Shown here piece by piece: positions 1-62,693 of a stretch of DNA of 64,000 nucleotides; positions within the stretch are counted from its first letter, which is position 1; each line of letters begins with the position of its first letter. The notes under the pieces were generated by a model. The model did not search any database and was not told the DNA's origin. It was given only the letters and a program-made list of their open reading frames with translations. The DNA is from Acholoe squamosa (Eukaryota > Annelida > Polychaeta > Phyllodocida > Polynoidae). Where the stretch lies: positions 86,527,920-86,591,919 of the forward strand of contig OX439036.1 in the NCBI GenBank assembly GCA_949317995.1, given 5' to 3'. A program made the position numbers and the translations under genes.

Positions 1-220
1 TATGTTCTTTCTTCACCCTGTGTTATGCCATTTTATTGACAGTTTTAAGAATCAATGTAATATTATGTTCAGTTAATCAGGTCTTTCACATCACTATCGC
101 AGTCCAATATGGTCTGATTTTGCCTGCTTATGTTAAAAAATCTGGAATCAAAATGCGTTGCATCTCTGGGAATGTTGTTTTGTTCCTCAACTAATTCTGT
201 AACTGAATTGTTAACAACAG

Positions 221-12200: not shown

Positions 12201-12709
12201 ACACACCACCGACTTCAAGAAAGTGACCGGGGAGCGCGCCTCCACGCCCGAAGAGTTTGCCACCAGCTGGACTGTGGGTAGACAGTGTCGGGCCATCAAC
12301 CGTGCCGTGCAGGAGGAAGTGAGCCCCATCCACCGTAACTACGAGCAGTGTGCCACCATCTTCCAGGCTCAAACATCTGCCTTCAGGCCATGCTTCAAGC
12401 AGAGGGACCCAGTACCCTTCATGAAGATGTGCATCAATGGTGACATGTGCAAGGTAGCCTCCTTCTATGTGTCTGAGTGCAAGATGATGGAGATCCCCAT
12501 CAGAATGCCCACACAGTGTGGTGAGTGGAATCATTATGCTACACATCCATTTATATAAGATTATTATAGCCATTGAAGAAAGTATAGTTGGAACATGTGC
12601 ACAATTCTGACCATGTAGAACTAGACATTTGATACTGTCCCCGATTTGGTCGATGGTAATCAATCAATGAATCCCATTTATTTACATCTATATATTTACA
12701 TTTATTTAC

Positions 12710-12759
<50 letters not shown>

Positions 12760-12777
12760 TTATTTACCCATTTATTT

Positions 12778-12849
<72 letters not shown>

Positions 12850-22378: not shown

Positions 22379-22804
22379 TGGAAGTTACCTGCTTTCCTTG
22401 AAAACACAAGGATTTAGATTCCTTTCTGACAGTCAGTGACAGTCACAGTGGATTACCTACCAAGCCGGCTTGAAATCTGGATAAAACTTACTCTTGTTTG
22501 ATGGTACATTGAACATTGACAGCTGGATAGAGTGAAGTGACAGCTGGGTCAGTGTCTATGATGTTGTGCTGTATGGTTTAGAGAAGCACACTGTTCATTT
22601 TACTGTCTGCTTCTAGAGACATTCAGATTGTGTGGAGAACAGAACTTTCTTCTCGGCCCCTGGGGTAAATACCATAGCCGGTACATCCATCCTTTGTTGC
22701 ACATCCATCCCTCACACGAACATTTTACACTTCAAGTAAGTTTGTGCAATATTATAATACATATCGCCCGCATAAACATTTACCTCCACTCCGGTCCGGT
22801 AAAC

Positions 22805-24700: not shown

Positions 24701-24780
24701 ATACAGCCCAGCTCGAGGCGCCAGAACGCAACATACATACACACGACAGTATAACGTACTACAGTAACTCCGCCCACTCT

Positions 24781-26980
24781 GTGTCTGTAAACAAGAACGC
24801 ACGTGCGCCCTCACGAGGCCCCGCCCACACACAGAACCATGACGTCAAGACAGACGCTGACCAATACAAGGACGCGCGCCTGCAGAACCACGGAATTGGT
24901 GACGTCACCGCAACATGTCTAGTTGCTCCCAGCATGCACACCGACAACAAACATGGCGGCCTCCATCACTCGCCGCCACAACAACAAAGTACAGAATTAG
25001 CGGTGGACATTGTCGGAAATGGTCGGTCTGCAGTTCATATTCATGATGACTTGTACAACCTACACCAACCACCGCACACAGGGGCACACAAGAACGACTA
25101 TGTGCACCCCACATCGGAACTTCCACCAAACATACAACGCCAACAACAGGACCAAAGCAAAACAGGTACGGCCCCCAACTTTGACACTATCAGAAAAATG
25201 TGCGAAACAAATGTGATCGATGGTACTGTTGATATTTCCCCATATGCTTTCCAACAATATAGACTGGACTACTGGCCGAACTTCGCATTCTCTGATACTC
25301 ACCCAGAGCTAGCCAAATTATATGATATTGTACGGCAGACCGGTCTTCCAAACGCTTTGGCGGCTCGTGTCCCAGTAAAAAGTGAGTTAAAATTGGATGC
25401 TTGGGAAGCATACCTGGGCCACATACCTGAAAAAAGGGTCCTCCTAGATTTCATGAAATACGGGTTCCCAATCGGCTACATGGGCCCAATATCTGATACA
25501 CAGGCTGTCCACAATCACCCTAGTGCAGAGGCATACAAGGCTGAGGTGGATAAATTCGTGGAAAAAGAACTTGGTATAGGGGCATTAAAGGGCCCATTCC
25601 ATAACAATCCATTTGACCCATGGGTCCATGTGTCCCCCCTTATGACTAGACCTAAGAGGGACACGGAAGCTCGCAGGATTATTTCTGACATGACTTACCC
25701 ACCTGACTCCTCTGTAAATGCATATATACTTAAGAATACAGTTAACGGGGTTACACGCAATCACAGCCTCCCTACTGTTAAAGAGGCCGTAGATTACATT
25801 GCTAAGGTTGGAAATGGAGCTTACCTCAGCACAATAGATATCAGCCGTGCATATAAAAATCTTATGTCCTGCCCATTAGACTATCCACTCCTGTGCTCAG
25901 TATGGAGAGACAAGTTCTACCTGGACTTGAGTGTCCCATTCGGGTCCAGGGCAAGTGCTTCGCACATGCAGGCAGTAGCTGACTCAATTGTGGAGATATT
26001 GGCCACAAAAGGCATATTCTCACGAATGTACTTAGATGACTTGCTCATAATCTCTGTTGATTATTTCAGAGCACACTCAGACTACAACACCGCAAGAGCG
26101 CTTCTACAACAACTCGGCCTCCCAGAAGCTATAGACAAGTTGCAGCCACCAGCCAAGTCGGTCCAGTGGCTTGGGGTGGTCATTGATGCAGCATCTATGA
26201 CAGTGTCAGTACCACGTGACAAGCTACAGGAGGTACAGGGAAAAGTGCGCTATTACGCCAAGAGACGATCAATGAGTAAGAAACAGCTGCAGTCCCTCCT
26301 AGGTGTCTTGTTACATGTCGCGAAGTGTATCCAGTCAGCTAGAGTCTTCGTGGCTAGACTCCTAGACAGCCTCAGGTCGATGAGGGGAAAGTATCTTAAT
26401 GTGTCAGCGGAAATGAGGGCAGATCTAAGATGGTTCGAGGAGTTCAGCTCCTCATGGAACGGGGTAGGCATGATCACAGACCCATCCCCCCCGACCAGAA
26501 CTATATATGTGGATGCCTCGGGATCTGGCATTGGGGCCTACGATGGAAAACTGGCATACGCCACCCAGGTCACCCCACTGGAGGACAAGGTGGAAAATAT
26601 CACACATTTGGAGGCTGCAAATATTGTGATTGCATTACACACATTTATTGGCTCCTCAGACCGTGGCTCTGTGATAAATATAAAATGTGATAATCAGGCT
26701 GCCGTCACGGTGTTCAGAACTGGAAGAGGCAAGGACCGCATACTCACTGACTGTGCCCGGGCAATCTGGATGATGCAGGCCGCATTCGACATATCCATTA
26801 TCTTTGACCATGTGCCCGGAAAATCTAACACAGTTGCAGATGCACTTAGTCGCGCCCATATAAGTAGTGCTGATAGAAAGGCGGCCATCCACCAGTTAGC
26901 TATTAACAAGTTGTACCTGATAGACTCCTGTTTGTATTTCTTTGATGTCCTAACACCTGGCCTCACCTCTAGGGGAGGCA
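24781..26980 (+). CDS. Reverse transcriptase-RNase H ORF of the Ngaro-like element
   Basis: This frame starts 80 bp after the gag stop and its first ATG is at 24934, so translation probably uses reinitiation. RT motifs appear in order: I-S-D-M-T-Y-P fingers; L-S-T-I-D-I-S-R-A-Y palm; F-G-S-R-A-S; then the catalytic Y-L-D-D-L-L (26029-26046). RNase H follows, with Y-V-D-A-S-G-S, H-L-E-A-A-N, K-C-D-N-Q-A-A, and D-H-V-P-G-K-S-N-T-V-A-D-A-L-S-R near 26800-26850. These motifs are intact, so the enzyme could be active. The frame stays open to 27807, but after about 26950 the conserved coding moves to the +1 frame, so I end the meaningful part there. RT makes cDNA from the element RNA. Confidence 0.9.
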
Positions 26981-27943
26981 TTCAATTACTTTCAGGCCAG
27001 AGCGGCTGCAAGGCAGCTACAGGCGCGAGCAGAGGGTACCGACCGGAACAGACATTCAGCAGCCGGCCTGTACCACCTATTCACAAGAGAAATGGGCCTG
27101 GACCCCATGTCACCTACCTACCAGTCAATATGCGCTTTCATAGAGTTCATGACAATGTCTACACAACACCCGCGGACAATTGCCAACAACTTGTCCCACG
27201 TGACGCAGCACCTGATCCTGGCCGGAGCAGACGTAGCTGCTTTCCAACACCCACGAGTCTCTCGTGCAAAGCAGGCGCTGCGTCGAAACAAGAAAATCAA
27301 AAAGAACCAGAAACCAGCAATACCCATGACTATGCTAAAGGCCGTCATCATGCACACCTCACATACATTCATGGGTCTAATGATAAGAACAGCAATTTTA
27401 ATTATATATCTGGCAGCTCTCCGCAAATCAGAGGTCCTCCCGCCATCAAAAGGGGGCTTCAAGCCATGGTGGCATCTGACCAGAGGGGATGTGGTCCTAT
27501 ACGACGATCACGTGACAGTCAGAGTCAAAGCAGCAAAGAACATGCAACTGTACGACCAGGAAAAAACAGTCCTATTGCAGAGCTCAGAGGACTCTGCAGT
27601 ATGCCCAGTGCATGCAGTAAGCCTTGTACTAACAGTAATGCCCACGACAGACCCAGCACAACCATTCCTTATGAACACAGACGCCTCCCCCATCCCGGTA
27701 ACACTAGTAGAGGCGGAATGGAGAAAAATTCTGAAAGAACTGGGTCAACCACCCCGAAAATTCTCTCTACATTCGCTGAGAGCCGCCGCGGCGACTCAAG
27801 CGTATGACGCTGGATGTAATGAGTTGGACGTCCAGAGATATGGGGCATGGTTGTCAAATACCCACAGGGACTATATTAGATCACAGAACCACAGTTCTGT
27901 AAACTCAGCCATTACCAATGCACTGGCAAACACACAACATTAA
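26954..27943 (+). CDS. Tyrosine recombinase ORF of the Ngaro-like element
   Basis: An integrase-like tyrosine recombinase in the +1 frame relative to RT-RNase H. The catalytic set is visible: L-A-A-L-R-K-S-E (first Arg), S-L-H-S-L-R (His-x-x-Arg), G-A-W-L-S-N-T (Trp/His position) and H-R-D-Y-I-R-S (nucleophilic Tyr). The first ATG is at 27092, but the frame is open from the TAA at 26951. Its translation from about 26972 (EAFNYFQARAAARQLQARAE) looks like the N-terminal core-binding helices, so the protein probably starts earlier, by frameshift from RT. It would integrate a circular DNA intermediate without target duplication. Confidence 0.88.
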   Translation, partial: HLASPLGEAFNYFQARAAARQLQARAEGTDRNRHSAAGLYHLFTREMGLDPMSPTYQSICAFIEFMTMSTQHPRTIANNLSHVTQHLILAGADVAAFQHPRVSRAKQALRRNKKIKKNQKPAIPMTMLKAVIMHTSHTFMGLMIRTAILIIYLAALRKSEVLPPSKGGFKPWWHLTRGDVVLYDDHVTVRVKAAKNMQLYDQEKTVLLQSSEDSAVCPVHAVSLVLTVMPTTDPAQPFLMNTDASPIPVTLVEAEWRKILKELGQPPRKFSLHSLRAAAATQAYDAGCNELDVQRYGAWLSNTHRDYIRSQNHSSVNSAITNALANTQH

Positions 27944-29379: not shown

Positions 29380-32300
29380 ATGGATGCCGCCTCACCGCTT
29401 TACCACAACGTTGAAGATCTAGAATACTCAAAACAGTTTATGGAGCGTTTGACAAGACTCCGTAGTGATAACCAACAAACAGATGTCATTCTCAAGGCTG
29501 ATGACAAGTCGTTCCCATGTCATCGAGTCGTTCTCTCTGCATGTAAGTGCATATGCCTCGTAAGTTATGTGCCCCAGCGCTCACAGATTCTGAAGCTAAG
29601 TTAAGTTCCTCCTGTACTGGTGTAAGACCGACAGGGAAAAGATAAGGATTCTAGTGCATGAGAGTTTTTTTCGCCCCCCCCCCCGCATTTACAGGCTTAA
29701 AGGCAACCGTAGTTTGGATTGCTATCTTTAAATCTTCATAGGTAATGTACAGTGCATAAAACGGCTTCTAACTTAAAATAATGGTAACATGATATACCTT
29801 TTTTATTATGCAGCAAGTGAATATTTCAATCGGATGTTCAATTCGGGTCTAGAAGAGGCCAGTTCAGGAGTGATTGAGATTAAAGGGACAGACTCAGACA
29901 CACTCTCCTGCCTTCTCCAGTATATCTACTCTGCCCACATTAAGATAACCACCGACAACGTGCAGAACTTAGTTCAGGTAAGACATATCTTTCTGTCATA
30001 GATGTATACCCTCTCGTAATTCATGCACACGTATTGAGTCACTATATGATTAAAAAAGCACCAGAGGCTGACTAAAATTAGGACAGTTGCTGAGAGACCA
30101 AGAAAAAAAATCAGAACTCAAATAGAAGATTTTCCACTCTCAACAAAAAATCCACAAGGCCTTTGGACAGGATAATTATACTTTTAAGGTGGCCCATGTC
30201 TAAACCTGCCACTGTCAGAGATGCCACTTTTCCTGGTTTATCAGGAATTCCTGGTTTTTTATTCTAAGATTTCTGTAATTAATCATGTTAGATTCCTGGG
30301 GAGGTGTGGTTCAAGTCCAGTTTTCCTGGTTTTTGTCGACCAGTGAGTGGCATCTCTGCACTGTAGGCACCATACCAGTTCCTGTAATGTGGGTTGTAGA
30401 GGCGTCAGATCAGTTCCTGTTCTGTGGGCTATACCATGTTACAGGCGTCAAACTACCAAAATCTCCCGCGTATAAGACGCGTCTTCTACGCCAAACAAAT
30501 GCCTTGTGCGTCTTATAGGATTTTCTGAAGTTTGGGGTGTGTCTTATACGCGGGGTTTTTTGATTTTCCATTTGGGAATTAGTCTGATTTGATCAGGAAA
30601 ACCCCCCCAAATCACGGCATCGACTCATAGCGGCAGCACCGCGGCAGACCGGGAGGTGTTAACGCGCTCCCCCGGGGTGTAGGGACGTATGGGCCGACGA
30701 CAGCAGAGACTCAACAGGTTGACACTATAGACAAAGCGGCATGGCTGGCCGGGGTGTAGGGAACGCATGGGCCGACGACAGCATAGACTTAACATTTCTT
30801 TTAAATTTCGGGGGGAGGGTGGGGGGGTGCGTCTTATACGCGAACCCCCCCTGCTGAGTTGGGGGGGCGTCTTGTACGGGGGGTTTTTTACAAATCGATT
30901 CAGAAGGGTTGGATGCGTCTTCTACGCGAACCAGCATACCCTGAGTTTGGGGAGCGTCTTCTACGCGCACAGCGTCTTCTACGCGGGAGATTACGGTAGT
31001 TCCAGTACTGTGGTTATATTTTGTCACAGGCATCAGACCAGTTCTAGTACTGTGGGTTATACTTTGTATAATACAGACATCAGACCAGTTCAAGTTCTGT
31101 GGGTTATATTTTGTTACAGGCGTCAGAATAGTTCCAGTACTGTGGGTGATACTTTGTTTAATACAGGAATCAGACCAGTTCCAGTTCTATGAGTTACAGT
31201 TTGTTACAGGCATCAGACCAGTTCCAGTTCTGTGGGTTGAAGAGGGCCTGTGAGGACTTCATGCTGCAGCAGATTGTGCCGTCTAACTGCATTGGACTCT
31301 ACAAATTCTCCAAACTTTATCCACTGAAACATCTCAAACATGGGGCTCGTTCTACAATGCTGAAAAAGTTCCCTGAAATCGTCAGGTGAGGATGGGTGCC
31401 AAAATGTGAATTTTTAAAAGTCATACTCGGCTTGTTATCAGAAGGAATTGAAAAATTCAATCTGATGGTATGTTAGAGTCATATCAGTGATTGGGTATTT
31501 ATATTACTAAATTACCTTGACCAATCTCCGTTAGGGAGTGATCATTTATTAACAACAGGGGGGGGGGCTGGTGGGTTTGAGGGGGGGTCAGAATTTTTTC
31601 AACCCCTTGACCAGGGGGGGGTCAGAATTTTTTCAATACCTCTGATGAGGGGGGTCAAAATAATTTCACCTGTTTTCAGTGGAAAACCCCGCGCGTTACT
31701 ATAGGCTAAAAGGGGACGTTCACGCGCAAACCCACCAGCCCCCCCCCCCTGTTGTTAAAAAATGATCACTCCCTTACACTATGTAAAAAAATGTTTTATT
31801 GTGCATATTAATATTGTTTACAGTATTTTGTCTAGACTTTTTTTTAATCTTGTTTTGTAACCTATATACTTCCAGGTCGACTGAGTTCACTGAGCTCTCC
31901 GTTGATGATGTTATAGAGTATATCTCAGATAGTGAGCTACGGGTGCCCACAGAGGACACAGTGTTTGAGGCCGTGTGTATGTGGGTGAAAGTAGATCCAC
32001 AGCAAAGGTAAATATTTGGCCCCCTTATTGTAGTTCGACTTGTCACTCACTCGTATACCTTAACTAAAATCATGAAGCATTGGAAATATAAGGCACTGAA
32101 AATAAACCAGTTTCCACTATATTCTCACCTGTCTCTGTTTTTAACTTATGTGTACAATACTACCATATCTCTCACGTAGAAAATGTGGTGTGCGTAGAAG
32201 ACGCTCCCCCAACTCACGGTAGGCTGGTTCGCATAGAGGACGCATCCAACCTCCCTGAATCAATTTTTAGAAAAAAAAACGTATAGGACGCCCCCCCCAA

Positions 32301-35300
32301 CTCAGCAAGGGGGGTTCGTGTATAAGACGCACCCCCCCAACCCCCCCAGAATAAAGAGAAATTAAACATTTAGAGCTGTCATCGGCCCATCTGCTCCCTA
32401 CACCCCGGCAGGCGTGCGGACTAGGCACTATCGGTCGTTGCTGTCATCGGCCCATCCGTTCCCTACACCCTGGCAGGCGTGCGGACAGTTCCCTGGTCGC
32501 CGCAGTCGAGGCACTATGAGTCAATGCTGTCATCAGCCCATGCGTTCCCTACAACCCGGCAAGCCACGCCGCATTGTCTATAGTGTTAACCTGTTGAGTC
32601 GATGCTGTCATCACCCCGGCAGGCGGGCGCGGCAGGCATGCGGGCAGTCTTGGCGCTATGAGTCGATGCTGTCATCGGCCCATGCATTCCCTTCAGGCCT
32701 GGAAGCGCGTTAGCACCTCCCGGTCTGATTTGGAGGTGTTTCCTTGATCACATCAGACTATCTCCCAATTGGAAAATCGGAAAACCCCGCATATAAGATG
32801 CACCCCCAACTTGAGAAATCCCTATAAGACGCACCAGGCATTTGTTTGGCATAGAGGACACGTCTTATACGCGTGAGATTACGGTAGTAGTATATCAAAA
32901 TATAATACAATTATTTAACAATTGTTGTTCTGGGAAAAACTTCAAAATCATGTAGCGATTAAATGGGGATAAGATTGTCTTTCAAAATTCACAACCTTCA
33001 GTTACCTAGTACACGATCCCATTGATAAGGCCACACCAAAAAAATAAATTGGTCTACGGATTTTGGTTTTGAAAAAATGGTGCGAGCGAGTGAATTTTTT
33101 TTTTTTTTTAAAAGAATTTTTTGGCGTTGAATGGATTCCTTGGTAGGAAAGTGAGGCGAGCGAACAAATTTTTTTTTTTTTTTTAATTTTGCCAAACATC
33201 ATAAAGAGAAAACTTGTTGAAACTGAAGCGAGCAAAATCTCTAGACAAGATTTTCAAAGAAAAAAAATTGTGTTTCCGAAAATATGGAGAGGGCGATCCG
33301 TAGACCAACTTAATTTTTTGGTGTGGCCTAATTAAACAATTTTCTTTCTAGAGAGGCGTTCTTCCCACAGATCATGGCCCACGTCCGGTTACCATACTGT
33401 ACAAGTATCTATCTGTGCCGCGTGGTGTCACCGAGTCCATTAATGGTATCCGCTGAATGTCAGCAGTACCTGGAGGAGGCCAGGTCCTACCACATGTTAC
33501 CCGACCACCGCCATGAGATCAGTACCCCGCGTACCGTCCCCCGCTGCCGCTTTGCAGTCCATGGCTGTCTTGTCATTGTTGGAGGACTAACAAAGGTAAT
33601 TGTGTTTGACATATCAGTTTCTATATTTGACCTGTTATAAGGAACAATGTACAGCACCTACCCTAGCCTGGCAAATAAGGGATCCAGGTAGTTGCACATG
33701 GTCAGCCAAGATGCCCTATACCTAAAATAGAGGCAGGGTTTCACAGTCTATGATCAAGACAGCTCATTATAGATAATCCAAGAGGTCAGATCATTCCTTA
33801 ATGATATACACATATAAAACTTCGATAACTGACTAAATATAAAATGGTCAAGTCCCATCTGGACTCAATAAGAGGTCCACTCCTAGAATTATAAGGTGGT
33901 ATGAATAGTAAATCTGTCAGCAATTCTCTTCTCTACTTCAATACAATTGTCCACAGGAGGACCATGAGAACCGCTACAGCTGGTACCTTAAGGCAGATGC
34001 CTCATCATGGGAGCTGCTTGCCCAGTTACCCCGCCCATCATGGAAGTTCTACAGTGCCTCCGCTACCCAGAGTGGTATCCTCGTGTCGGGCGGCTACTAC
34101 CACGAGGTCAAGAAAGACTGTTGGCTGTTCGACATCTCTGAGAAAAAGTGGAAGTCTCTGCCACCCATGACGGAAGGTCGCTGCAAACATGGCAGTGTGG
34201 TTCATAATGGTTGTGTGTACGTCCTAGGAGGGGAGGATGATTTTAGACTGTTGAAGTCCATGGAGAGATATAATACCAGGCAAAGACAGTGGTCCCTCCT
34301 GCCATCCCTATCTAAGGGGCTCTCAGACCCTCTGACTGCCACCTATGGTCAGTATATTTACGTCCTCAGTGGTATAGAGGGCAGTGATGCTACCTCAGTT
34401 AGTACATTTGCCTATGATACAGTATGGGGGGAGTGGCATACCCGTGCTGATATGCCAGAACCAGTGCGACTTGGGGCTGCAGCTACTGTAAATGAGAAGA
34501 TCTATGTGGTAGGCGGTTATACACGTTCCTGTATGAGCTACGACCCTAGAGCAGACTGCTGGACCGTACTCACCCCGCCCAGGGAGAAGCATGGAAATGC
34601 CCCAGCCACCGTTTGGCGGGTAGGTTTAGACACTATCTTAAACATATTTATGCCTTATAAATATTAACTTCAATATGGAGTGTACCTTATAAAATGGGGT
34701 AAGGCCATACCAAAAATATAAGTTGGTCTATGGATTTTTGTTTTGAAAAAATGGTGTGAACGAGGGAATTTTTTAAAGATTTTTTTGGTGTCCAATGGAT
34801 TCCTTGTTGGAAAAGTGAGGCGCACAAAAAAAATTATTTGAAAAAGAAATTTTGCCAAACATCACACAAGAGAAAAGTGAAGCGAGCAAAATCCATAGAC
34901 AAGATTTTTTAATACAAAGAAAAAAAAATTGTATTTCCGAAAATATGGAGAGGGTAATCTGTAGACCCAAGTTAATTTTTTGGTGTGGCCTAAGATTACA
35001 TTTCTAGATTAGTACTAAACATCTTAGAAAGCAAGCCTCAGGTGCACCTTATGTTATTTTAAACAACTTATGGTATGTCTTTTATATTAGATGCGACTTA
35101 TACACAAGGTACTATGGTAGATATTACTTGAGTCAATGCACCTAAAAGACAATTGAATTACCGGTAGAGTCTGTTTTTATTATTTCTTTTTTCCAGGGTA
35201 AAGTATTGGTTGGCGGTGGGGACATTGACAGTAATGAGACTACATCGGTAGTGGAGGAGTACGACCCAATGGCCGACACCTGGTCATATTGTGCCATAGC

Positions 35301-43744: not shown

Positions 43745-44140
43745 TTCCTGTCCCTCCCTACACTGTAAAAAATGTGTGTTGAAATTACACTGCCCCTCCC
43801 TACACTGTAAATAATGTGTGTTGTAATTAGACTGCCCCTACCTTCACTGTAAAAACGTGTGTTGTATTTACTGTCCCTCCCTACACTGTAAAAAAATGTG
43901 TGTTGAAATTACACTGCCGCTCCCTACACTGTAAAAACTTGTGTCAAACTTACTGTCCCTCCCTACACTGTAAAAAATGTGTGTTGAAATTACACTGCCC
44001 CTCCCTACACTGTAAAAAATGTGTGTTGAACTCACACTGCCCCTCCCTACACTGTAAAAACGTGTGTTGCACTTACTGTCCCTCCCTACACTGTAAAAAA
44101 TGTGTGCTGAAATTACATTGCCCCTCCCTACACTAAAAAA
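43745..44140. repeat. About 44-bp minisatellite (CCCTCCCTACACTGTAAAAA)
   Basis: About nine tandem units around CTGCCCCTCCCTACACTGTA followed by AAAAAATGTGTGTTGAAATT. Unit length varies slightly (40-47 bp). A 78-aa Cys/His-rich open frame across it is a product of the repeat. Confidence 0.93.
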
Positions 44141-44149
44141 GGTGTGTTA

Positions 44150-46720: not shown

Positions 46721-49700
46721 ATGGCGAGAAGGGCGAGGAAAAACAAGCACACAGGTGGGTTAGCAGGATCATTAATATTGACACGACTTAATTCTATAGT
46801 TAAAGTGTGAGAGGCAAATGGTGATGGTCATGGATATCGATAGTTGGATGAATATATTGATAATCTGTGATCAAAATGTACGTTTGTAAGGAGTATACAG
46901 ATGCATGGTCCAGCAGTGAAAGCCGGTACATGTGTATATACTAAAGTAGACAAATTTCAAAGGGCCAATCAACCAATTTCACACATTTATGTTCACAGAA
47001 AATAACTTTAGGATAATTCATGGTAGGCCTGAATCACATTGCATTTAAATAAGCTGGTGTAAATTTTAGTTGGTAATAATATCCTATTTGAGGAGTTCCA
47101 AGATAAAAAAATTCCATATTTCAGATATGGTGAAATACTGAAGATAGTAAATTTGATTTATTTCAGCCAAGGTGGGATGGATGGAGATCCGCAATTCCCT
47201 CCGTTGGAGCCTCCTGTGCCTGTGGTGGGTTGTGTGCCTAGCACGGTACATTAATCCATTTCGGTATCTTAAATATAAGTCAGTAACCACCCCAAAGGCC
47301 AGTCCTACAGACGGACACATCTTCCAACCGTCACTCTGGGAGCGTTTTATGGACACCTTCCGCAGTGGTAGGTTGAATATGATATAATTACACTGACTAT
47401 CTTTATTTGTAAATACCGGTGGTTATATACAGGGATGTCATTTCATTTTGGCCAATGTGTAGGAACCTTGATCAGACAACACGGCCAATGATACTACGGT
47501 ATCTATCAAGCTTCTTGACATGGCTGCGGCTCATTTCGTTCTCCATAGCCTCAAAATATCAAAGACGCATCGTATTTCACAATGCAATTACTACTTGCTC
47601 CCATCATCAGCCCCTCAATTCCCTCTCCGATCCTAGCCTTAAACAGGAATGTACATTGGTGCCTGTAACACTAGTGCTGTTCTTTTGAACAAGGTTATTT
47701 CGCCACTAATTTCTCAAAATTATAGTATTTTGGCTACGGTATCATTTAGATATAAAGGGCACAAGATATGTACTATGCACCTCCCTTTCGTATACACCAC
47801 GAGCTTGTTTGATCATGTCTATGTTCATGACAACGCTCCAGTAATAGTGGTGTTATTATCTCTGTATCCGTGGAGACACTTTATCCCTATCTATAGATCA
47901 ACAATAATATAATGCATATCACTTGGAATAATTTACGCTGTAGTTATACATGTATCCGAAAGTCTACATCATAGGTCTACTTAATTATAAAATCTCGCCC
48001 ACTTCATACACCGTGAGGAGGGGTCATTTGTAAAGAGTAGGGGGTAAAACAATAAAAAGTGAACCTGTGCACCCCAGTTCCAAACCAAAGCCCCTAATCA
48101 CTCCTAGTGCCACATGCATGTAACCAAGACAATGTGCAATCCTAATGGATATCCCTACTTGAATCCCAGCCAACTGTAGCTCCTATACCCTCCAGAACAA
48201 AATTGATATACATGTAGTTAATACATACACTGCTATGTTTTTTTTCTTTCCTTTATGTATACAAGTGTGCATAAGTTTCACACTTCATATAATATTGTTC
48301 GCAGATCTACTTGCCAAAACAATGTCATTAAGTCAATGCTTTTTTTTTCATTATTGTCTTTCATTCGATGTTATTACATGTATATGACTTGCAGAGGCGA
48401 CCATCAATCAAAAGCTGTTGGACTGGTGCCAGGACCAATTGCCCACCTTCCTGGTTATAGACTTTGGCTCCACCTGGCGTGATGGTGTCACATTCTGCGC
48501 TCTATTGGAGTCAGTATGTCCAGGAAGCTGCCCACGTTATGACATTCTCAAACCGATGAACAGAACCAACAACTGCCGGCTAGGACTGAAGCTATCCTAC
48601 AGATATCTCTCTATACCACAGGTAAGAGCTTATAAGGCGCGTTTGTTTTTTTGTTTTTTTTGTTTTTTTTTACATGAAACTGACCATGGAACCAAGAGTG
48701 CCTTATAGAACAATCCCACATCGCAGATGTGTCTCATTCAATAAACTTTTCATTAAACTAGTAAAAAATATGTCAAAATGGAGGTGCACCTTACATGTTT
48801 CTATCAAAGTTGGGTGCACCTTATATGTACGGCCGCCTCAAGTGGCAAGTGCCATAGTATTACCCCATAGAGTACATAACATTATGCACTGACATACATT
48901 GTAAAATCTTAAGGCTTTACTACTATTATTTCCTACAGAATCTAGTGACAGCTGAGGAGATGGCTGGAGGTCATTCTGAGGATAAGGTCCGCTCACTACT
49001 TAAGCATGTTCGCTGGGCTGCAGCCCACCACAGTCATGTGTCCAACATTGACTGGTCGCGTGCTAATAGACCTTCAAGGGCACCTGATGGAAGTTTCCTA
49101 AACACAACAGAACCATGCCTTGCTAAAGGTCTGTAACTGTTTGCAGTTTGACTGTGATGTGCCAGTTTTGAGTTGTATCATACAGAAAAAAAATGCCGGA
49201 ATATCGGTCTGGCGATAGAAATTTCTCACTATTTACTAAGTAAAGATGGGTTCCCTAATGCATGCAGGGGTAGACATTACCACTGGCCCGGTGGCCAATT
49301 GCCAATAGTTTTGACATAACCACAGTTTCTTTTACATAACCACATGCTATTCCAGCTATAAATTCCGTTCCAACAGCTTTAGTTGCGGGCCAATAGATTT
49401 CTGAGGCTATCGGCCCGGGTGGCAAGTGGCTAAAAGAAATTGTGTCTACCCCTGTGCATGTATCAAAAGGATGGGGTCATACATGTACGTTTTGAATAAT
49501 GATGTGGGGAGAATATGTTCGAATGCAGGGCCTACTGTTATTTGGTATTGTGATATTCTAAGGAAGTTACCAATCATCACCAAATTGTTTCTGTTTTAAG
49601 GAGGCGGCCTTGTGAATGGAGTGGTTGGAAAGAGATGTAAGTTTAACCTGTTCGTCGCCGAGAGTACCAACCTGAACTTGGAGATAGATATAAGGGGCCC

Positions 49701-52700
49701 TAAAGGGGAGATGTGCCAAGAGAGAATTAAAAGAGAGCATACAGATATGGCAAAGAAGGAGCTCAGTCTGAGAGCTGTAGACAGACACCCCAAAAACAAT
49801 AATAAAAACAACAATAAAGCTCGCAGCCTTTGGCAAAGATTTGCTGGGAAAAGTTTATTTGTTCCAAGATCAAATATGGAGAGATCTATTTTAAAACGAA
49901 CTTCTCTTGCACCTGCTGAGTATAATGCCAATAATAAGGGCATACCCTTTGATTATCAATGTCTGGGGGACAACCATCTTCTCATATCATATACCCCATG
50001 TAGTGCTGGAAATCACTATATTTCAATAAAGTGGCATGGGGACGCTATCCCTGGCTCTCCATTTACAGTAAAGGTAGCTGAGAACGTGGATACCTTGGTC
50101 ATTCACCGGTCAAGGCGCTACCTGAAGGACACCACCAAGGAGGTAGCCTTCAAGGAGGACAACATTGACATGCAGCAGGGTGATTGGTCTGCTGAGGGGT
50201 CTAGTGAAAGACTAACAGATGTAAGTTCAGATACCTCGGCAAGGGATGAACCTTTGAAAAGTGCCCCTGTGCAGGCAGCCATTCTTAGTCACACTAGTAC
50301 AGTTCTTAGGTCTCTGAGCACAAGTAGTCCAACTTTAGGAACTGCAGCGCGTCTTACAAAACAGACTACAATTACCCGTAAGCGGGTTCTGAGGCGCATC
50401 ATGGCTAGGGCGGGACAGGAGATTGTGATCCACGAATCCCAATCAAGCTCATCCACAGAACAGCCCCCTGATAATGGCCCTGGTAGTGGGAAACTCAAAG
50501 AGAGAATGGGAAGTCCAAGTCCGAAGAAGCACACATTTGACTTTGATGTTGTAAGCGACTCAGGACAAAATAGTAAAGCTGTGACTCCCCAGCCTGGGAA
50601 TGTCTCACACCAGGACTTGGCAACCTCCTCTAGCCCACTTGAACCAAAACCTCGCCAAGAGCAAGGTAGGGATAAAGCTGCACCAGAGTTAAAAAATAAA
50701 CAGATTAGTAGTCCACAGCGAGTGAGTTATCGACGTTATAACTCAGACAGTGTCTTGGATCTACCAAGCTTTGAAAGCAGTCTGTCGACAGACCAATCAG
50801 CTTCAAACCGTCCCATCCGCCCGCTCGCTGTGAAGAAACCAAGTCTGCTATCTGTCCCCATGCATGATGAAAACTTCAAAAGTAGTCCATTTCTACCTGC
50901 CAGTATGTGGGCCACTAATGACTTAGCAGATGCTGACATGAAGGAAAAACTCTTAGAGGGTGGGTTTATAACACAGATGCCTTCTGGATTGAATAAATCA
51001 GATCATGCAGAGAGTGATAGTACTATGGACAGTGATTCTGATGGGGTTACCTTTCGTGAGAAATCTAGAGATTCCACCACTGAATCACGGAGCAAAAAAA
51101 ATGCGCTGAGCTCAAGTTCCATGTCACATGATTCAATGGAACAGGAGCTCAACCAAGGTATATTTGCCTCCAATGATCCTTTGAATTTGCACAGTTTGGT
51201 CGATGTTGAAAGCAAGCCTCCCTTAAATGAGAAGAAGCCTCTTTCTAAAACATACTCTGACCCTTTGAATCCAGCTAGATCGAAGAAAGTCACACCGCAG
51301 AGATCAAACACTAGTCCTGGCAGGGCACTTGGACGTCAACAGTCTGTGGACTACACAACTATTCCTGACTTGGAGAGTCCCAGTATTAGAATTCTTCAGT
51401 CTGAAAGTCTTCGTAAATCTTGTTTTTATATCAGTGAAAGGACACGGTTGGAAAATGTAGGAGAATTTTACACAGACGGATCTAGTCAATTAGACTCCAC
51501 AGACAGTCTAGCGTTAGAGAACCATCCAGTGGTAATCCATGAGGACACAGAGATGGATAATGACGAGAAGGGACAATGGGAAAATGAAAAGGAAAGTAGG
51601 GTCAAACCCAACTCGAATGAAAATGATTTGTCAAAAGTACTATGCAGAAAAACAAAGCTGAAAGAATTGCTTAAGCAATCTGACCATCTAAATCTGACCC
51701 AATCACTCTCTCTCCCAGCAAAGTTCAAGAATTGGCATGCTATTGATATAGACTCAGATGAAGATATGGAGAACAGCGAGAGCAAGGTGAAAAACACTAA
51801 ACACAGGCCATATGGGGCAAGTTTGGTTTCTTTTGACCTAAAAGGCCAAGTTCAGCATTTCCAACAGGTCAATGAACCTACCAATGGGGACATAAAAATA
51901 AGTGCCTTAAATGGAGAGCATAGAGGTCTGATGGCATGGCCCGAAGAACAAAGTGAAGATAATTCTAAGTCTGACACAGCTATAACAAAAGGAGCCTTTA
52001 CTCAGGCTGGGCATAGTGTGCCTGATGTGGCCTATCCACCTAACTCAAACTCTCAAGACATTAAATCTGAGGAATCTGGTCACACTCAAACTCAAAGGGG
52101 TTTGTTACACAGACAAGATGTGTGTCAAACATCTAGTAGCCCTGACATGAACACACCCCTCACTGACAGTAAGTCTAGTAACAGTTACGAGGGAAGCGAC
52201 AAAGAGAACGAAACACCTGGTGATCACACGTTCAGTCACAAAATCACTCCTTCGATGAACCACTTGAAATTAGTCACTCGCAAAATGGATAGCCTGAAAC
52301 CAACCTTTGTTGCAGTAAGGTCATCTAGCGTACAACCCACTTTGAGAATTCCAAGAGCTAAGGTTGATCGTACCACTCAGGTCTCACATTATGAGATAAA
52401 GGCAGAGACAGGCTGGGGCTGCCTCAATGTGCAAATACAACACAGAAAGAAACCTATAAAACAGTCTTCTCCGAGTAAGGACGAAACATGGGGGTTTCAA
52501 AGTATGACTCAAAATCATCAAATCACCAAGCAATTGAATGAAAACGTTTCAAAGATTAATTCAGATTCAACTGTAGATAGAGAAATACTTATACCAAATA
52601 TGTTCAACAGTGCAGTAGCACCACATAAATCCCTATCTGGTGTATCAAAGAATGAGACAATTATACTATCAACAGGAATCAATGCTCCCCAACCAGAGTG

Positions 52701-55700
52701 GCAGCCAAAAGCATACAGTGGGATTGCTGAATCTCTGGTCGTGCTGGCATCAAATAATGACAAATCAGGTGAAAAAAGCCTGGAAACCTCAAGTTCAGAA
52801 GCACCAATACCCATAGTATTCACGTAAGTACTAGTAATAACTAGGTGATTTATTATAGCATAGTTTACATACTACGTCCATCTTACAGAGTGCATCTTAG
52901 CTGGTAATAAGAGATGAAAATATAAGCCTAAATAAAGTGCTCCTTGTGAGTGAAATGGTATGACTTCACAGATCTTAATGGTAGTTATACTGGTCTCGGT
53001 CAAGATTTAATCATTATACCCTTGCAATTGAAACATGACCCATTCATGTATATTTTTGCAATGACCCCTTTTTTTTTTTGCAGACCTCCAATAGCACCCC
53101 GATTTATATCAGGGCACCGGGTGGTCACTCGACGCAGAAACAGACGTAGGGTTGTACCAGATCCAAAGTTCTTTCGCTCTTCCCCAAACACATCTCATGA
53201 TGATGAAAGTGGTAAAACAAACCATGACCTGCAAACAAAAGTTTCCAGAGCTACAGGTATGATCAAAGCGGTCTGTAGATTCAACAAGAACAAGCTAGGT
53301 CTGCGAAGATGGGGAAGCGACGAGTTTGCATCCAAAGGCGATGGTCATAAAAGACTGCGCTTATGGTCCAAAATTGGATCACAGCGGAGACATGTCATGT
53401 TTTCAAAACGGGTTCTTGTTCACAGACGGTCATCTAGCAGAGGTTCATCTCGGGGCTCCAGAGCGTCATTAGACTCCTACACCAGGAGCTTTGTGAGCAA
53501 AGACAAATTCCTCAAGGTAGAATCAAGCCATGACTATCAAAGATCAACTTCTGAGGAGGCACCACCATCAACTACAATTGACTCTAAAGACAAAAGAGGA
53601 GCTGTAGAAAGGTGGTTGACTCAAACATCTCAAGACATGGTTCCAACCGATGAAGAAACACCTCTCAGTCTAAAATATGACAGTGTCAATGAACCCTCTG
53701 AAGATTCTATAGCTGGAGAGATTCAAAATACTGTGCCTAAGACAACTGGCGTGAGTACCCTATCAAATGCTATCAGAATCAATGAAATGACTGATGTGGC
53801 CCCAGGCAGTCCACCTGATATGATGATGGGTACACTTGATCCTATGCTCCTCATTCCTCCACCTACAAACAGTGTACTAACAGATACAAATAGTTCTGCC
53901 TCTCCTGACAGACCTAACTCTGCACACAGTATTGCTGGCAGTACAGACGACCCATCTTATTGTGGTTTTGGGGTCTCTCCTGACGTCAGACAAGGCCTCC
54001 TGGAGGAACTAAGTGCCTTCTCAAACCTCACATCCCCAGAGTACCCTTGTTCCAGAAGGACGTCCTTAAAAGATGCTTGGGCGGAACAAAAACCTCTCAA
54101 TGAGATGTGGGAGGAAGGCATTCCAAGACTAATGGAGGATCAAATAGACGAGAATATGGTAAGTAAGAGATATGTAACCTTTATCACTCCAAGAGACATT
54201 TAGGCCAAAATAAATCAAAACGTTTTGTATGTTTTGTGCGTGCTGGTATGTTTTATCATATCCATAAGGATCACGGTTTTGAGGAATAGTTACATTGAAT
54301 ATGACTAAACCTTCATTGGATCACTTTGATATTGATATCTACCAGAATGCATTTAATCTATAAATAGAGTGTATCAATGGGTCTAGATCTTTGCGTAATG
54401 GTAATTAAATGAGTATTGTTTCATTGCAGACGAAGCACGACCTAGTCCAATTTGATCAAGACTCCAAAGCGCAAGGCCTTTCAGAGATCAGAGAGATTCT
54501 AGAGTTAGCCCTGTCTCCCCAACCCTCCCCTGTCCCCACACCAGACGCTACCCAAACAGCAGACGACATTCAATCCACTGACGGCACTTCTGGTGGAACC
54601 GGACCGTCAGCAGACGATGTTCTTGCCAACTACCAGGCGGCCAGACCTGAGAAATGTACAGCTTTTGGGACAGCTCTAATAGAGGGCATCGTTGGCGTTA
54701 AGAATAACTTCCAGGTGGGTAGGAGTGAAGAGAAAAATGCGCACTAAAAAGTGTTCGATCTAAAAAGAGATGGGTACTTTTTTTCTCTCTCTCTAAAACA
54801 TACGGCTAGGTACACCCACAGACATCAATGGTTTGGTCACCTTTCCTTCATCAGCATCTAACTATTGGCCACTGGTATTTATAGTCCTTTTTAAAATTAG
54901 CTTCATTTGATTAAAAGTTAGACGGAATCAATGGAAGCGACATTCAATCGTGGGGAGGTGAACCCCTCAGTGTTGAGGGGAAAAGGCCACAGGATAGCTC
55001 CAAGGGAAATTTAGTGGGCAATACAAGCTAAGAGGAAATATCCTCTTAAAGTAGAATCACGTAAATAAGAAGAAGAGCAAAGATGATAGACCTAGTATAC
55101 CCTCATAATCAATTATTATCCAGGTGGCTGGCATATATCTCACAGAGATGCCACTCACTGGCCGATAAAAAACAGGAAATCTGTTCTTTGGACACATTTT
55201 CCAAGGAATTCAACATAATTTAATAGAGAAAATTTGGAATCAAAACCAGGAATTCCTGGTAAACCAGAAAAAGTGGCATCTCTGATCTCAATTCATGGTA
55301 CTGGGAGCATTATCAGGTTCTTTTATAGCTTTTGAAATATGCTCCTGACCAGGTAAGTCTTTAGTGACGTCACACAGACCAGCGCGGCCCTTATAATACT
55401 TTCCCGAGAGAGACAAGTCCCCCAGAAGGGTCAAATTGAATAGGAAATGTACTAGAAATAGTGTTCCGACCCTCATCTGAAAATATCTAGACCCCATACA
55501 GTAAAATGTAATACAAAATCCAATAGATATTCAAAATGTACACTACATATTACGTGACGCATCATTTTCTAAAACCAACATGAGAAAAAAAATCGGTGAA
55601 AAGGTGAATTTGTCTTAGTATATTACATATTCAAATTGAACCTTTGTGGCTTCCTTAGCAACTAGAATCCTGCTCCCAAGAATATTCTAATATTTTTTTT

Positions 55701-55959
55701 TTAAAGAATATATTAATGAGAATTGTTTTCTATTAATCAGGTAGAGACTACCCAGGCAGGTAATGGAACACTGACGGTGGGTATTACAGGACCCCGACCG
55801 CACACCGTCTCCGAAACTAACGTGACGTACACTGGAGATGACCTGTATGACGTTATATATGACGTCACTCAACCTGGATATTACATCATCACCATAAGGT
55901 GGTCTGACGTGAGCATACCTGGAAGTCCTTTCGTATGCAAGGTTGCATATGGACCTTGA
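46721..55959 (+). CDS. Filamin-like protein with single CH2-like domain and two filamin repeats (about 1,817 aa)
   Basis: Exons: 46721-46754, 47167-47367, 48395-48621, 48939-49128, 49601-52823, 53084-54158, 54430-54714 and 55741-55959 (stop TGA 55957-55959). They sum to 1,818 codons with matching phases. Exon 2 encodes a hydrophobic stretch (S-L-L-C-L-W-W-V-V-C-L-A) between basic residues. Exons 3-4 encode one calponin-homology domain closest to filamin CH2 (L-L-D-W-C-Q...W-R-D-G-V-T-F-C-A-L...I-P-Q-N-L-V-T-A-E-E-M). A filamin repeat follows, from K-G-G-G-L-V-N-G to I-P-G-S-P-F-T-V-K-V, with an 80-90 residue insertion. Next comes about 1,400 residues of Ser/Asp/Lys-rich, probably disordered sequence. 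A second filamin repeat is split over the last two exons, ending I-P-G-S-P-F-V-C-K-V. The likely role is actin cytoskeleton scaffolding, possibly membrane-linked; no close named orthologue is recognised. Confidence 0.85.
49265..49454. mobile_element. MITE CAGGGGTAGACA family (6-bp TSD TGCATG)
   Basis: 190 bp bounded by CAGGGGTAGACA and TGTCTACCCCTG, with exact TGCATG flanks at 49259-49264 and 49455-49460. It lies in intron 4 of the filamin-like gene. Confidence 0.85.
55143..55285. mobile_element. MITE CAGAGATGCCACT family, copy 3 (6-bp TSD ATCTCA)
   Basis: 143 bp, inverted relative to the copy at 30216. The ends are CAGAGATGCCACT and AGTGGCATCTCTG, with exact ATCTCA flanks at 55137-55142 and 55286-55291. 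It lies in the last intron of the filamin-like gene. Confidence 0.88.
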
Positions 55960-58422: not shown

Positions 58423-61400
58423 TTACCAAGGGTTAAGGAATATCCACTGTGCCTTTCGTTTCATTATTACTTTACTAGACAACGCCAAAAGGAGTTCATA
58501 CTTGACATAGTGTGCGATGTTCCATTTTGTCTCGGCAGACTTTGGTCCTTCGATCCTCGCGCCATCCTTAGTTACAATTGCAATCTCATACTGTAAACGA
58601 AAAAAAAAGTAAAGATAAGGAAAAAGGCAAATATACAGTGAGGTTCAAACATCAAGTAAGGATTGTAATATTTCAAAATTATAAAAGAGGATTTCTAGTA
58701 TCCATTTTAACCGAAAGTTTCCCATGGTAGTTAGCATTTCTGTCAGTAACCATTTCTACTGCAGGGATGGAAGTCACAGAGCACGAAACCCCTGAAATGG
58801 TCCAATATCGGCCCAAAAACCTGAGTTTTTATATGAATATATAGGTTCCTGGAATTTCAAAATCACTGAAATCAGGGAAATCCCTGAAGACTTTCATCCC
58901 TGCTACTGATTATAATATTACAAATAATTTCAAATACATTTAGAAATCATTGAAATCTTACTCTGTTTAGGGAGCGTGCATCTCTGTAGAACAGAACTTG
59001 TAGACACCGCTCGATTTCCGTCACAGCCTCGGCCTCTGTCATGTTAGGGTTCTTATCAAGGGCCTCACGGAGAAGGGGCTACAGTCGGGAAAAACGATAA
59101 TATGATTATTTATTATGTTAGATTCGGCAGGTACAATAATTTGCAGGAAACATTGAATCACAAGATTGATACTAACGTCATAAATATGTTTGTTTTTTTT
59201 TCATTCTTTTTTTTCCCCTCATAATGATACCACACTGAACATCACATTTTATGAATGTGCTGCATCTGGCTTTTGGGATAACACAGAGTTTGACATCAAC
59301 GATGGTACCAAGGAACGATGGTACCAGAACGATGGTACCATGTTTTTACGAACGATGGTACCATCAATAAGGAATGATGGTACCACTTCCAAATTATGTC
59401 TGTTATCATATCCTTGATCATATTTTATGCATCTGGTACAGTTGTATTTGTAATTGGGTTTTATTTGGGTGTTTCTGTGAATTTCCTTCACTTTGACGGC
59501 CTTCACCTGGTAGGCTGTGCCTTTGGTTTGTGAGGCTTCTCTAGACCCTGTTGAAGTGTTCCCTAACGCTTACTCCAGAATAACTGACATTTTCTAACAG
59601 TCACAGATGCTGACCTGATCTATAACAACAAAATCAACAAAATTACCAGTAGTGAATATGTGCTCCTCTTGTTTCAATGTTTAACATGGTACTAAAAATA
59701 TTTTTCTAACGCAAATATTGTGCAAATGGCAAGCCATCAAACTATTAAGTACCATGAATTTTAAACTTCTAATCTGTATACATGTATTAACATTTTTGTC
59801 AGGGGAGGGTAAAGGTACATTGTAACAAAATTGTTACAAACTAAACCCAATAAAAATATAATCTTAGCAATTTGCCGTGAGAACATACAATTTTTTACCG
59901 TCATTTTTTTTTTATCATTTTTTTTTTGTTTTTTTTCTATTTTTTTTCCGTCATCTTTTTTATCATTATTTTTAATCAACTCCACCCATTTCCATGCTCA
60001 TCAATACTAAGTAATCATCAAGAGGTAGCAGGGAGAGGTAAGACATGTTTGCAGGGACATGGTACTATCGTTCCTTTCAACATGGTACCATCATTCCTCA
60101 TGGGTGGGAAGTAGTACCATCGTTCCAGAAACCGACATGATGCCATTCTTTAGCAGCACCTGCCATACCTCATCCATAAGCCGCACACAGACTTTGGGAA
60201 GCTTTATAAGACAGGAGCTTCAAATTCTATGTAAGCACGCACAGTTCCATACACCTTCAAATACTATCTGTTACGTACCGTAGCAATGTAGGATCCGAAG
60301 CCAGATGCCAGACTTTGTCCTTCGTAGGCAGTGCCAATCTTGTCAACGTACCCAAGGTAGCTGAAAAATTACAACAACTCTATAATACATGTGTCCACAA
60401 AGTCTTTAGTCATGTATGGTTTTTAGAACGTATTAACACTAGATTCGTTCCTACCCGATAGGTGTACTGGATTAGTTACCAGGTTGTACAGTCCTGAGAT
60501 GAAAGTGATTAAGCAAAAACGAAAATTCCCGAAGCACTCTATACTTTCATCTCTGATAGGTCCCACGAAAGGAGCAAAAGAAGTGTGGATTAAACCTAGA
60601 AAGTCAGCCCCCTGTACCCCGTAGTACTGTAACTAGACAGCAATTAAAAGATAGAGTAAAAGAATATGTAACAAAGTAGTACTTGTATGGGGGACTGTAG
60701 TTAGAAATAGTTAAATCTGATGCAATGTCCACTATTGACACTACACTCTATCCAATAGACTATCACTTGGTCTATAATTACAAATCCTACATCTAATGCA
60801 ATGTCGTGGTCACTGTTGACAATTCATAATGACCAATAGTCTGGGTTTGATTGGTATGTCTAGACCAATCAGTACTGGCTGTGATTGGGTGAACAGTCCT
60901 AATTGCAATATCTCCACTGTGACCACTGCCTGCCTTACAATCTTTTAGAGATATTCATATTACAATTGGCAAAAAATCTATGTTCTAACCATAGGATTTT
61001 GCACATATTCTCGGTTTTTACTTCTTTATCAACTTTCAATTGCCATACAAACTTACAGTATAAAAGCTTCATTACCGTAATCTCCCGCGTATAAGACGCG
61101 TCCTCTACGCCAAACAAATGCCTTGTGCGTCTTATAGGATTTCTTCAAGTTTGGGGTGCGTCTTATACGCGGGGTTTTCCAACATCTCATTTGGGAAAAT
61201 GTGCCGATGACAGCTTGAACTCATAGCGCCAGCACCGCGGCAGACCGATCGGTGTACAGGCGCTCAGCGGGTTTGACGCTGACCGTGTGCCGATGACAGC
61301 TTGAACTCATATAGCCAGCAGCGCGGCAGCGGTGTACAGGCGCTCAGCGGGTTTGACGCCGACCGTGTGCCGATGACGGCTTGAACTCATATAGCCAGCA

Positions 61401-62693
61401 GCGCGGCAGACCGGTCGCTGTAGATTTGCTTGGCGGGGAAGACGCCGACCGTGTGCCGATGACAGCTTGAACTCATAGCGCCAGCACCGCGGCAGACCGG
61501 TCGCTGTAGATTTGCTCGGCGGGGAAGACGCTGACCGTGTGCCGATGACAGCTTGAACTCATATAGCCAGCAGCGCGGCAGACCGGTCGCTGTAGATTTG
61601 CTTGGCGGGGAAGACGCCGACCGTGTGCCGATGACAGTTGAACTCATAGAGCCTGCACCGCGGCAGACCGGTCGCTGTAGATTTGCTCGGCGGGGAAGAC
61701 ACCGACCGTGTGCCGATGACAGCTTGAACTCATATAGCCAGCAGCGCGGCAGACCGGTCGCTGTAGATTTGCTCGGCGGGGAAGATGCCGACCGTGTGCC
61801 GATGACAGCTTGAACTCATAGAGCCTGGGGGTGGGGGGTGGGGGGGTGCGTCTTATACGCGAACCCCCCCTTGGTGAGTTGGGGGGGGCATCTTGTACGG
61901 GGGTTTTTCTAAATATCGATCCAGGGAGGTTGGATGCGTCCTCCACGCGAACCAGCCTACCGTGAGTTTGGGGAGCTTCTTCTACGCGCACCGCGTCTTC
62001 TACGCGGGAGATTACGGTAGTTTTGGAGATAATTTTACTATGGAAGTCAAGGGGAAAAAAAATCAAACTTCAACTTTGCCTTCCTATTACAAAGATTTCA
62101 ACCACACATTTTCATCCCAAAACAAAGAACACAATTAGCCAACACTCATGTATACTCTCTTCACTTTTAATACAATTCTGTCAACTCATTTTGTCAGAAA
62201 TGCCATCAGAGTGATTACTCATTTTTCTTGCCAACCCTGTCTCATAAAATGGGGTCCTGTATTATAACCATTTAAAGCTGAAAGGCAGTCCCCCATAACA
62301 ATCTATGAGTATGATAGCATATCCAGTCCATCAAACCACATTGATGCAATAGGTGCACATACCCAAATAAGCATACACCCCTGCTTTTTTCTCATGTCCC
62401 GGGACTGGAAATTACCCAAAGTTTTATCCTGTTTAAAGCCCAATTAAATTTTTAACTACTGTACACATATTTCAGATATTCTTAAAACACACTGTTCGTT
62501 AATTACTTCAAATACGGTTCAAACATGTAAGTTAATAGATACTCACGGTTCTCCATTCTGAAGGCCTCCTACGATGATGGTGTTCCAGAGGGGGTTCATC
62601 CTGCTGCGGAGGTTGTACAAGATTCTGGTGAGCCATGTGTGGAGGGACTTGGGTGTGTAGTTGAATCCATCGTCCAGGCACTCCTCATCAATC
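58423..62693 (-). CDS. PSMB4: Proteasome subunit beta type-4 (beta-7), C-terminal exons; 5' part beyond window
   Basis: A non-catalytic beta subunit of the 20S proteasome core. In transcription order the exons are 62693-62547, 60360-60279, 59078-58962 and 58590-58423, all with GT...AG sites and chained phases. The translation reads I-D-E-E-C, then M-N-P-L-W-N-T-I-I-V-G-G, Y-L-G-Y-V-D-K-I-G-T-A-Y-E, P-L-L-R-E-A-L, R-D-A-R-S-L-N-R and A-E-T-K-W-N-I-A-H. This follows the known PSMB4 C-terminal half closely. About 164 residues are present; the N-terminal part (about 120 residues in the family) is off the right edge. The C-terminus runs about 22 residues past the usual end. Introns hold MITEs, and an LTR element inserted antisense lies just upstream of exon 62547-62693. 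Confidence 0.93.
58762..58902. mobile_element. MITE CAGGGATGGAAGTC family (6-bp TSD CTACTG)
   Basis: 141 bp bounded by CAGGGATGGAAGTC and GACTTTCATCCCTG. CTACTG flanks both sides exactly (58756-58761 and 58903-58908). It lies in the last PSMB4 intron. Confidence 0.88.
59298..60127. mobile_element. Possible element with clustered GGAACGATGGTACC motifs at both ends
   Basis: Five copies of (GG)AACGATGGTACCA lie at 59298-59387. Three copies in inverse orientation (GGTACCATCRTTCC-like) lie at 60058-60127. Opposed subterminal clusters suggest transposase-binding sites of a non-autonomous element. Its ends and target duplication are not resolved. It lies within a PSMB4 intron. Confidence 0.45.
61075..62017. 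mobile_element. TA-flanked MITE, CCGTAATC family (copy 4, expanded core)
   Basis: 943 bp with perfect ends CCGTAATCTCCCGCG and CGCGGGAGATTACGG, flanked by TA. The core (about 61205-61825) is about seven or eight tandem units of roughly 85-95 bp (GTGTGCCGATGACAGCTTGA, GCGGCAGACCGGTCGCTGTA, GCGGGGAAGACGCCGACC). It is in a PSMB4 intron. Confidence 0.9.

Follow-up and report, generated by a model that had tools for sequence, protein, structure and literature searches.

A predicted filamin-like protein of Acholoe squamosa with a single CH2-type CH domain and two widely separated filamin repeats

The locus raises the question of whether a gene with recognisable filamin parts encodes a filamin in the usual sense, and if not, what has become of the CH1 domain and of the rod of consecutive repeats. 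We examined this in a 64-kb stretch of genomic DNA, which we refer to as the window and which contains no runs of N. The in silico gene model on the + strand has eight exons and seven GT-AG introns of 260–1,027 nt with compatible phases (1, 1, 0, 1, 2, 0 and 0), and the spliced frame is open over 1,817 codons to a TGA stop codon (5,454 nt counting the stop; see Table 1 for coordinates). Exon 5 sits inside an open frame of 1,075 codons, far more than chance would give, and exon 6 inside one of 417 codons. A domain search of the spliced translation found a single CH domain together with two filamin repeats, bearing out the initial annotation in its main points, with Pfam CH at E 7.2e-10 (6.3e-12 for the isolated fragment) and Pfam Filamin at E 8.4e-28 in the whole protein, and with both families exceeding their curated cut-offs.

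Domain scores rise when the exons are joined at three of the junctions (Pfam CH from 39.7 to 45.7 bits at 3/4, and Pfam Filamin from 41.1 to 45.6 bits at 4/5 and from 43.1 to 64.8 bits at 7/8), and these joins are therefore supported independently of the splice signals; the first two agree with the earlier proposal that exon 5 is joined to exons 3–4. Junctions 1/2, 2/3, 5/6 and 6/7 were placed by splice signals and phase alone. As no Pfam family matches residues 1–95 at E ≤ 1, the same applies to exons 1–2, the start codon (there is an alternative ATG at codon 17, located in exon 2) and the link between the hydrophobic exon and the CH exons. Several conserved filamin features are gone, as might be expected of a decaying pseudogene, but 5.4 kb are read without a stop or frame break, all seven splice-site pairs are intact, and the GC content at codon positions 1–3 is 0.498, 0.452 and 0.416 compared to 0.365 in the introns; we regard decay as very improbable.

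Table 1. Predicted exons and domains of the filamin-like gene, with positions in the window and the evidence for each.
Feature	Positions	Strand	Evidence
Exon 1 (tentative)	46721..46754	+	ATG start, very basic, 11 codons plus one base; open frame, GT donor only
Exon 2: hydrophobic stretch and linker toward the CH domain	47167..47367	+	AG/GT signals, phase 1/1
Hydrophobic segment, aa 22-40	47196..47252	+	Mean KD19 1.27; crude insertion energy 0.43
Exon 3: CH2-type CH domain, first ~70%	48395..48621	+	Pfam CH 39.7 bits alone, profile 4-78/109; tblastn
Exon 4: CH domain end (match reaches aa 176), beginning of filamin repeat 1	48939..49128	+	CH score rise with exon 3
Filamin repeat 1, aa ~212-373, split by intron 4	49110..50067	+	Pfam Filamin 45.6 bits over profile 7-93
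Exon 5: bulk of repeat 1, initial part of Ser-rich linker	49601..52823	+	Open frame; AG/GT signals
Insert in repeat 1, ~70 aa, basic, Asn-rich, between strand-C and strand-D parts	49732..49935	+	Pfam span; bounds set by hand
Exon 6: linker	53084..54158	+	Open frame; splice signals, phase
Exon 7: linker end, initial part of last repeat	54430..54714	+	Filamin score rise with exon 8
Filamin repeat 2, repeat-24-like, aa 1721-1810, split by intron 7	54640..55935	+	FLNC repeat 24 (1v05) 65.4 bits; alignment
Exon 8: remainder of last repeat and stop codon	55741..55959	+	Pfam Filamin 43.1 bits alone

The single CH domain had been described as CH2-like, and our comparisons agree. Its nearest relatives in the PDB are FLNB and FLNA at CH2 (49.9 bits), and its alignment score is 132 with FLNA CH2 versus 36 with FLNA CH1. 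A second alignment of the region reaches into the tryptophan of the CH1–CH2 linker. On these sequence comparisons we assign the domain to the filamin CH2 subtype. Smoothelins, MICAL and EHBP1 also have one CH domain outside a CH1–CH2 pair, but their CH domains match more weakly than the filamin CH2 (39.1 bits for smoothelin, 35.2 for MICAL-2 and 24.3 for EHBP1) and these proteins are not known to contain filamin repeats.

Searches for CH1 using FLNA and FLNB queries returned noise, with a best E of 0.78 for phmmer on the 2,664 six-frame ORFs of the window (of at least 15 residues, as in the repeat search) and of 1.1 for tblastn on the 64 kb. The sole positive control here was the finding of the exon 3 CH2 domain by tblastn with human CH2 and its linker (E 4e-14 for FLNB and 1e-12 for FLNA). 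Similarly, a filamin profile built from six sequences, both window repeats included, matched nothing but the two repeats and the exon 7 part when run against the six-frame ORFs; it detected no third filamin repeat in the 64-kb window, and the remaining matches were at E 2.1 or worse. Within the 64 kb we thus find neither a CH1–CH2 tandem actin-binding domain nor a rod of many consecutive filamin repeats, but two repeats 1,343 aa apart. The absence of CH1 noted earlier holds for both search methods, and the findings named as telling against the proposed architecture, an upstream CH1 exon or a further run of repeats, were not detected in the DNA of the window.

The gene might nonetheless be incomplete, that is, an ordinary CH1–CH2 filamin or one with more repeats, with further exons that are beyond the window or were overlooked. 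The window begins at position 1 with earlier sequence unseen, and the first exons are weakly supported; a CH1 exon may possibly lie more than 46 kb upstream, beyond the window, or be too divergent for phmmer and tblastn. Against this, CH1 is unmatched in the 46 kb upstream, a stop codon directly follows the last repeat, and the window has no extra filamin repeat. Other coding sequence (a kelch exon, a retroelement and ORFs containing VWD and VWA domains) occupies some of the DNA upstream, which makes a distant CH1 exon unlikely, and we consider an incomplete gene improbable.

The remainder of the window contains several other features. Within 118–14249 (+), a 2,283-codon ORF (1831–8682) that Pfam leaves unmatched at E 0.01 precedes ORFs carrying a VWD domain (E 9e-27) and a VWA domain (E 9e-6); the stretch looks like a portion of some large lipid transfer protein, for instance apolipophorin. 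A retroelement-like stretch at 22562–27943 (+) includes a reverse transcriptase (PF00078, E 1.5e-9), an RNase-H-like match below threshold, and a tyrosine-recombinase-like ORF whose PF00589 match (E 1.5e-5) has 25.3 bits versus a cut-off of 27.1; the stretch resembles a DIRS/Ngaro-type element. A kelch-repeat ORF is found at 33912–34667 (+; PF01344, E 7e-31), and a short tandem array at 43831–44146, whose + strand translation consists of repeated SLHCKKCVLKLHCP-like units, is probably satellite-like. Closely similar translations (RVEDAVRVED..., - strand) at 30725–31192 and 61644–62138 are probably copies of a dispersed repeat, and the stretch adjoining the latter (61307–61815) has a recurring unit which translates as VIGTRSASSPPSK.

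Upstream of the CH domain, residues 22–40 are a real hydrophobic outlier within the protein, as the best stretch elsewhere has a KD19 of 0.99 and a crude insertion energy of 4.47. The initial annotation had drawn attention to a hydrophobic N-terminus with basic flanks, and that description stands in so far as the segment is hydrophobic and flanked by Arg; as a transmembrane segment it is unconvincing, since its hydrophobicity resembles that of the last helix of the soluble FLNA CH1 domain (KD19 1.76, crude insertion energy 0.63). It is nevertheless the basis for the suggestion that the protein is a membrane-anchored or membrane-targeted scaffold, in which the N-terminal stretch, or a start at codon 17 that resembles a signal peptide, would insert and the CH2 and filamin modules would act at the membrane. 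The closeness of the stretch to the N-terminus, its Arg flanks and its outlying values all favour this, but the run lacking strongly polar residues is just 12 residues long (26–37, between Arg24 and Arg38, besides Trp25/Ser26), where a single-pass membrane protein would have ~19 apolar residues, the KD19 is below that of the buried FLNA helix with an energy that is barely better, and both fall far short of glycophorin A (KD19 2.67, crude insertion energy -0.47). In addition, the linker has 11 N-glycosylation sequons compared to 12.9 in shuffles, giving no hint of a lumenal domain, and the splicing of exons 1, 2 and 3 is itself predicted from splice signals and phase. A membrane anchor is accordingly considered unlikely.

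The same stretch could instead be a degenerate last helix of CH1, which would mean that the exon encoding the initial two thirds of CH1 was lost and the rest retained. Human FLNA has an intron inside CH1 at codon 125 in phase 1, and exon 2 here also begins in phase 1; the tryptophan of the CH1–CH2 linker can be aligned as well, and among the 53,012 six-frame 18-mers in the window just 167 match the FLNA helix with as good a score. (FLNA c.622 is placed in exon 3 in the literature.) Shuffles that preserve the hydrophobic composition, however, show no significant resemblance (p 0.16 and 0.30), and the register with the highest score, aa 16–33, differs from the one that pairs the tryptophans. We find this origin for the helix doubtful.

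Both filamin repeats, each said earlier to carry the IPGSPF signature and to stand apart, were recovered by Pfam on either side of the long linker. The first matches in isolation at E 1.3e-11 in spite of its insert, and 87 profile positions are covered by 160 residues, so that the insert is of some 70 residues and not the 80–90 given before. Alignment scores for this repeat are 113 against FLNA repeat 3, 109 against FLNC repeat 24 and 123 against the last repeat of its own protein, and they do not single out any one filamin repeat as its counterpart. The insert lies between the parts that match strands C and D, on the ligand side, and the filamin strands near this position are described in PMC3143143 as binding many filamin partners. 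A single-sequence AlphaFold2 model of the exon 5 repeat was of low confidence (mean pLDDT 50.7, with 31/174 residues at 70 or above) and has one strand before the insert and five after it. Of the 369 Foldseek matches to this model at E ≤ 10, none reached E ≤ 0.001, so that this search gives no independent support to the fold of repeat 1, and the model carries little weight. The non-significant rows included TRIM45, LIN-41 and FLNA repeats (ranks 5, 15 and 43). TRIM45 and LIN-41 are similar in having a filamin domain outside a filamin rod, though they are not known to have a CH domain.

The last repeat is better defined, and its nature was overlooked in the initial annotation, whose interpretation is supported in part (the CH2 type, the separated repeats and, within the 64 kb, no detected CH1); the lineage-specific character that it raised is a possibility. 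In isolation it matches Pfam Filamin at E 1.2e-17, and of the six repeats compared it aligns best with FLNC repeat 24 (35/89 identical columns, score 176; the five FLNA repeats score 75–126). We ranked PDB chains using single-domain chains and, among the multi-domain ones, the per-domain scores of 2j3s, 6ew1 and 4m9p, whose higher totals are sums over three repeats (best single domains 37.6, 36.3 and 36.3 bits). Repeat-24 chains lead this ranking with 8pa0 at 65.6 bits (its aligned sequence is identical to that of 1v05), 1v05 at 65.5, 2eed at 57.7 and 3cnk at 53.6; the next chain that is single-domain by its length, 2eec, scores 48.8 bits. 1V05 is described as the FLNC d24 homodimer and 2EED as FLNB repeat 24 (PMC12046049, PMC3143143).

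The residues of the repeat-24 dimer interface have fared differently. In PMC12046049, FLNC M2667 and M2669 are named for the heterodimer with HSPB7, whose interface overlaps that of the homodimer, T2677 and Y2683 are located at the dimer interface, E2681 makes a hydrogen bond with Y2683 across the homodimer, and R2690 contacts phosphorylated T2677 in simulation. After placing these numbers on the 1v05 sequence by counting, we found that M2667, M2669, T2677, E2681, Y2683 and R2690 align with T, T, P, E, N and D here, with one of the six kept and five differing. By sequence, then, the terminal repeat is of the repeat-24 type and is probably repeat 24 by descent, with most of the compared dimer contacts gone; it should be noted that these changes are no proof that dimerisation is lost.

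Between the two repeats the linker is 1,343 residues long (bounds set by hand) with 14.2% Ser and 0.5% Cys. It had been described as about 1,400 low-complexity residues, and although it is indeed very long and Ser-rich, 'low-complexity' is too strong a term and disorder is marginal: the mean hydropathy of 0.405, compared to a boundary of 0.418, puts it just past the charge–hydropathy line toward disorder. From its composition, the linker is probably flexible. Neither the [ST]P sites (25 versus 19.4 in shuffles, sd 3.8) nor the RxxS/T sites (19 versus 16.3, sd 3.4) within it are striking in number.

These features can be compared with known systems. The protein is like vertebrate FLNA/B/C in its CH2 type, its IPGSPF-bearing repeats and its repeat-24-like C-terminus, but differs in that CH1 is undetected, there are two repeats rather than 24, a 1,343-residue linker is present, and five of the six compared dimer-interface residues are changed. 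Caenorhabditis elegans FLN-2 and Drosophila jitterbug are divergent filamins whose repeats are also broken up by long unrelated stretches (PMC3143143), as the linker and the ~70-aa insert do here; in the account given there, those proteins carry three CH domains and FLN-2 has ~23 repeats, in contrast to one CH domain and two repeats in our protein, and the last FLN-2 repeat is reported to be unlike the dimerisation repeat, which the last repeat here resembles. (A paper on Jbug isoforms is cited in PMC10643981.) Of the architectures described in the literature covered, that of FLN-2 and jitterbug is the nearest, and the filamin-like protein does not fit it. Ten pattern matches to the last repeat in viral contigs and 94 to the CH exon in prokaryotic contigs included no relatives, as expected for an animal gene. 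By sequence, this is predicted to be an animal-type gene whose product is an unusual variant of a known protein and not wholly new.

Canonical F-actin binding had been thought unlikely for want of CH1. The review PMC7240100 assigns F-actin binding to CH1 and reports that the lone utrophin CH2 binds ~1000-fold more weakly than CH1, in keeping with this, and it describes as controversial whether lone CH domains bind actin. The same review gives the CH2 domain of SMTNL1 a part in the localisation of that protein to F-actin, and the single CH domain of EHBP1 is reported to bind actin (PMC7442826), so that actin binding of some kind is left possible. Judged from the sequence, we think the protein more likely to be a flexible scaffold than a canonical cross-linker, with some actin contact possible.

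We therefore favour, as the probable explanation, a divergent filamin paralogue that is truncated at the N-terminus and internally shortened, and which most likely acts as a flexible scaffold rather than as a canonical cross-linker. Such a paralogue would have lost the CH1 part of the actin-binding domain and nearly the whole of the rod, and would have retained the filamin CH2, a repeat bearing an insert on the C–D ligand side, the 1,343-residue linker and a terminal repeat derived from repeat 24. We infer loss, instead of a primitive absence of CH1 and rod, together with the flexibility and the scaffold role, in which the CH2 domain and the two repeats might serve as separate docking modules with the linker supplying reach. 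Canonical F-actin cross-linking is unlikely, given that no CH1 was detected in the 64 kb and that the compared repeat-24 interface residues are mostly replaced. The actin-independent side of this reading is weak, because the CH domain of EHBP1 binds actin or assists in it and that of SMTNL1 is reported to matter for localisation to F-actin.

A more elaborate possibility, which we think quite improbable, is an actin-independent, membrane-tethered filamin with a helix anchor, new partners for CH2 and the insert-bearing repeat, and a tip descended from repeat 24 that would form heterodimers instead of homodimers, carried on ~1,300 flexible residues. No description of such a fly-fishing scaffold for filamins was found in the literature searched, nor of a CH2-only filamin in the titles and abstract openings covered. 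If the filamin-like gene is real and conserved, it would mean that an animal filamin can drop its principal actin-binding domain and rod yet retain CH2 and the last repeat, and roles of CH2 and repeat 24 apart from actin cross-linking, which are hard to separate in vertebrate filamins, would become open to enquiry.
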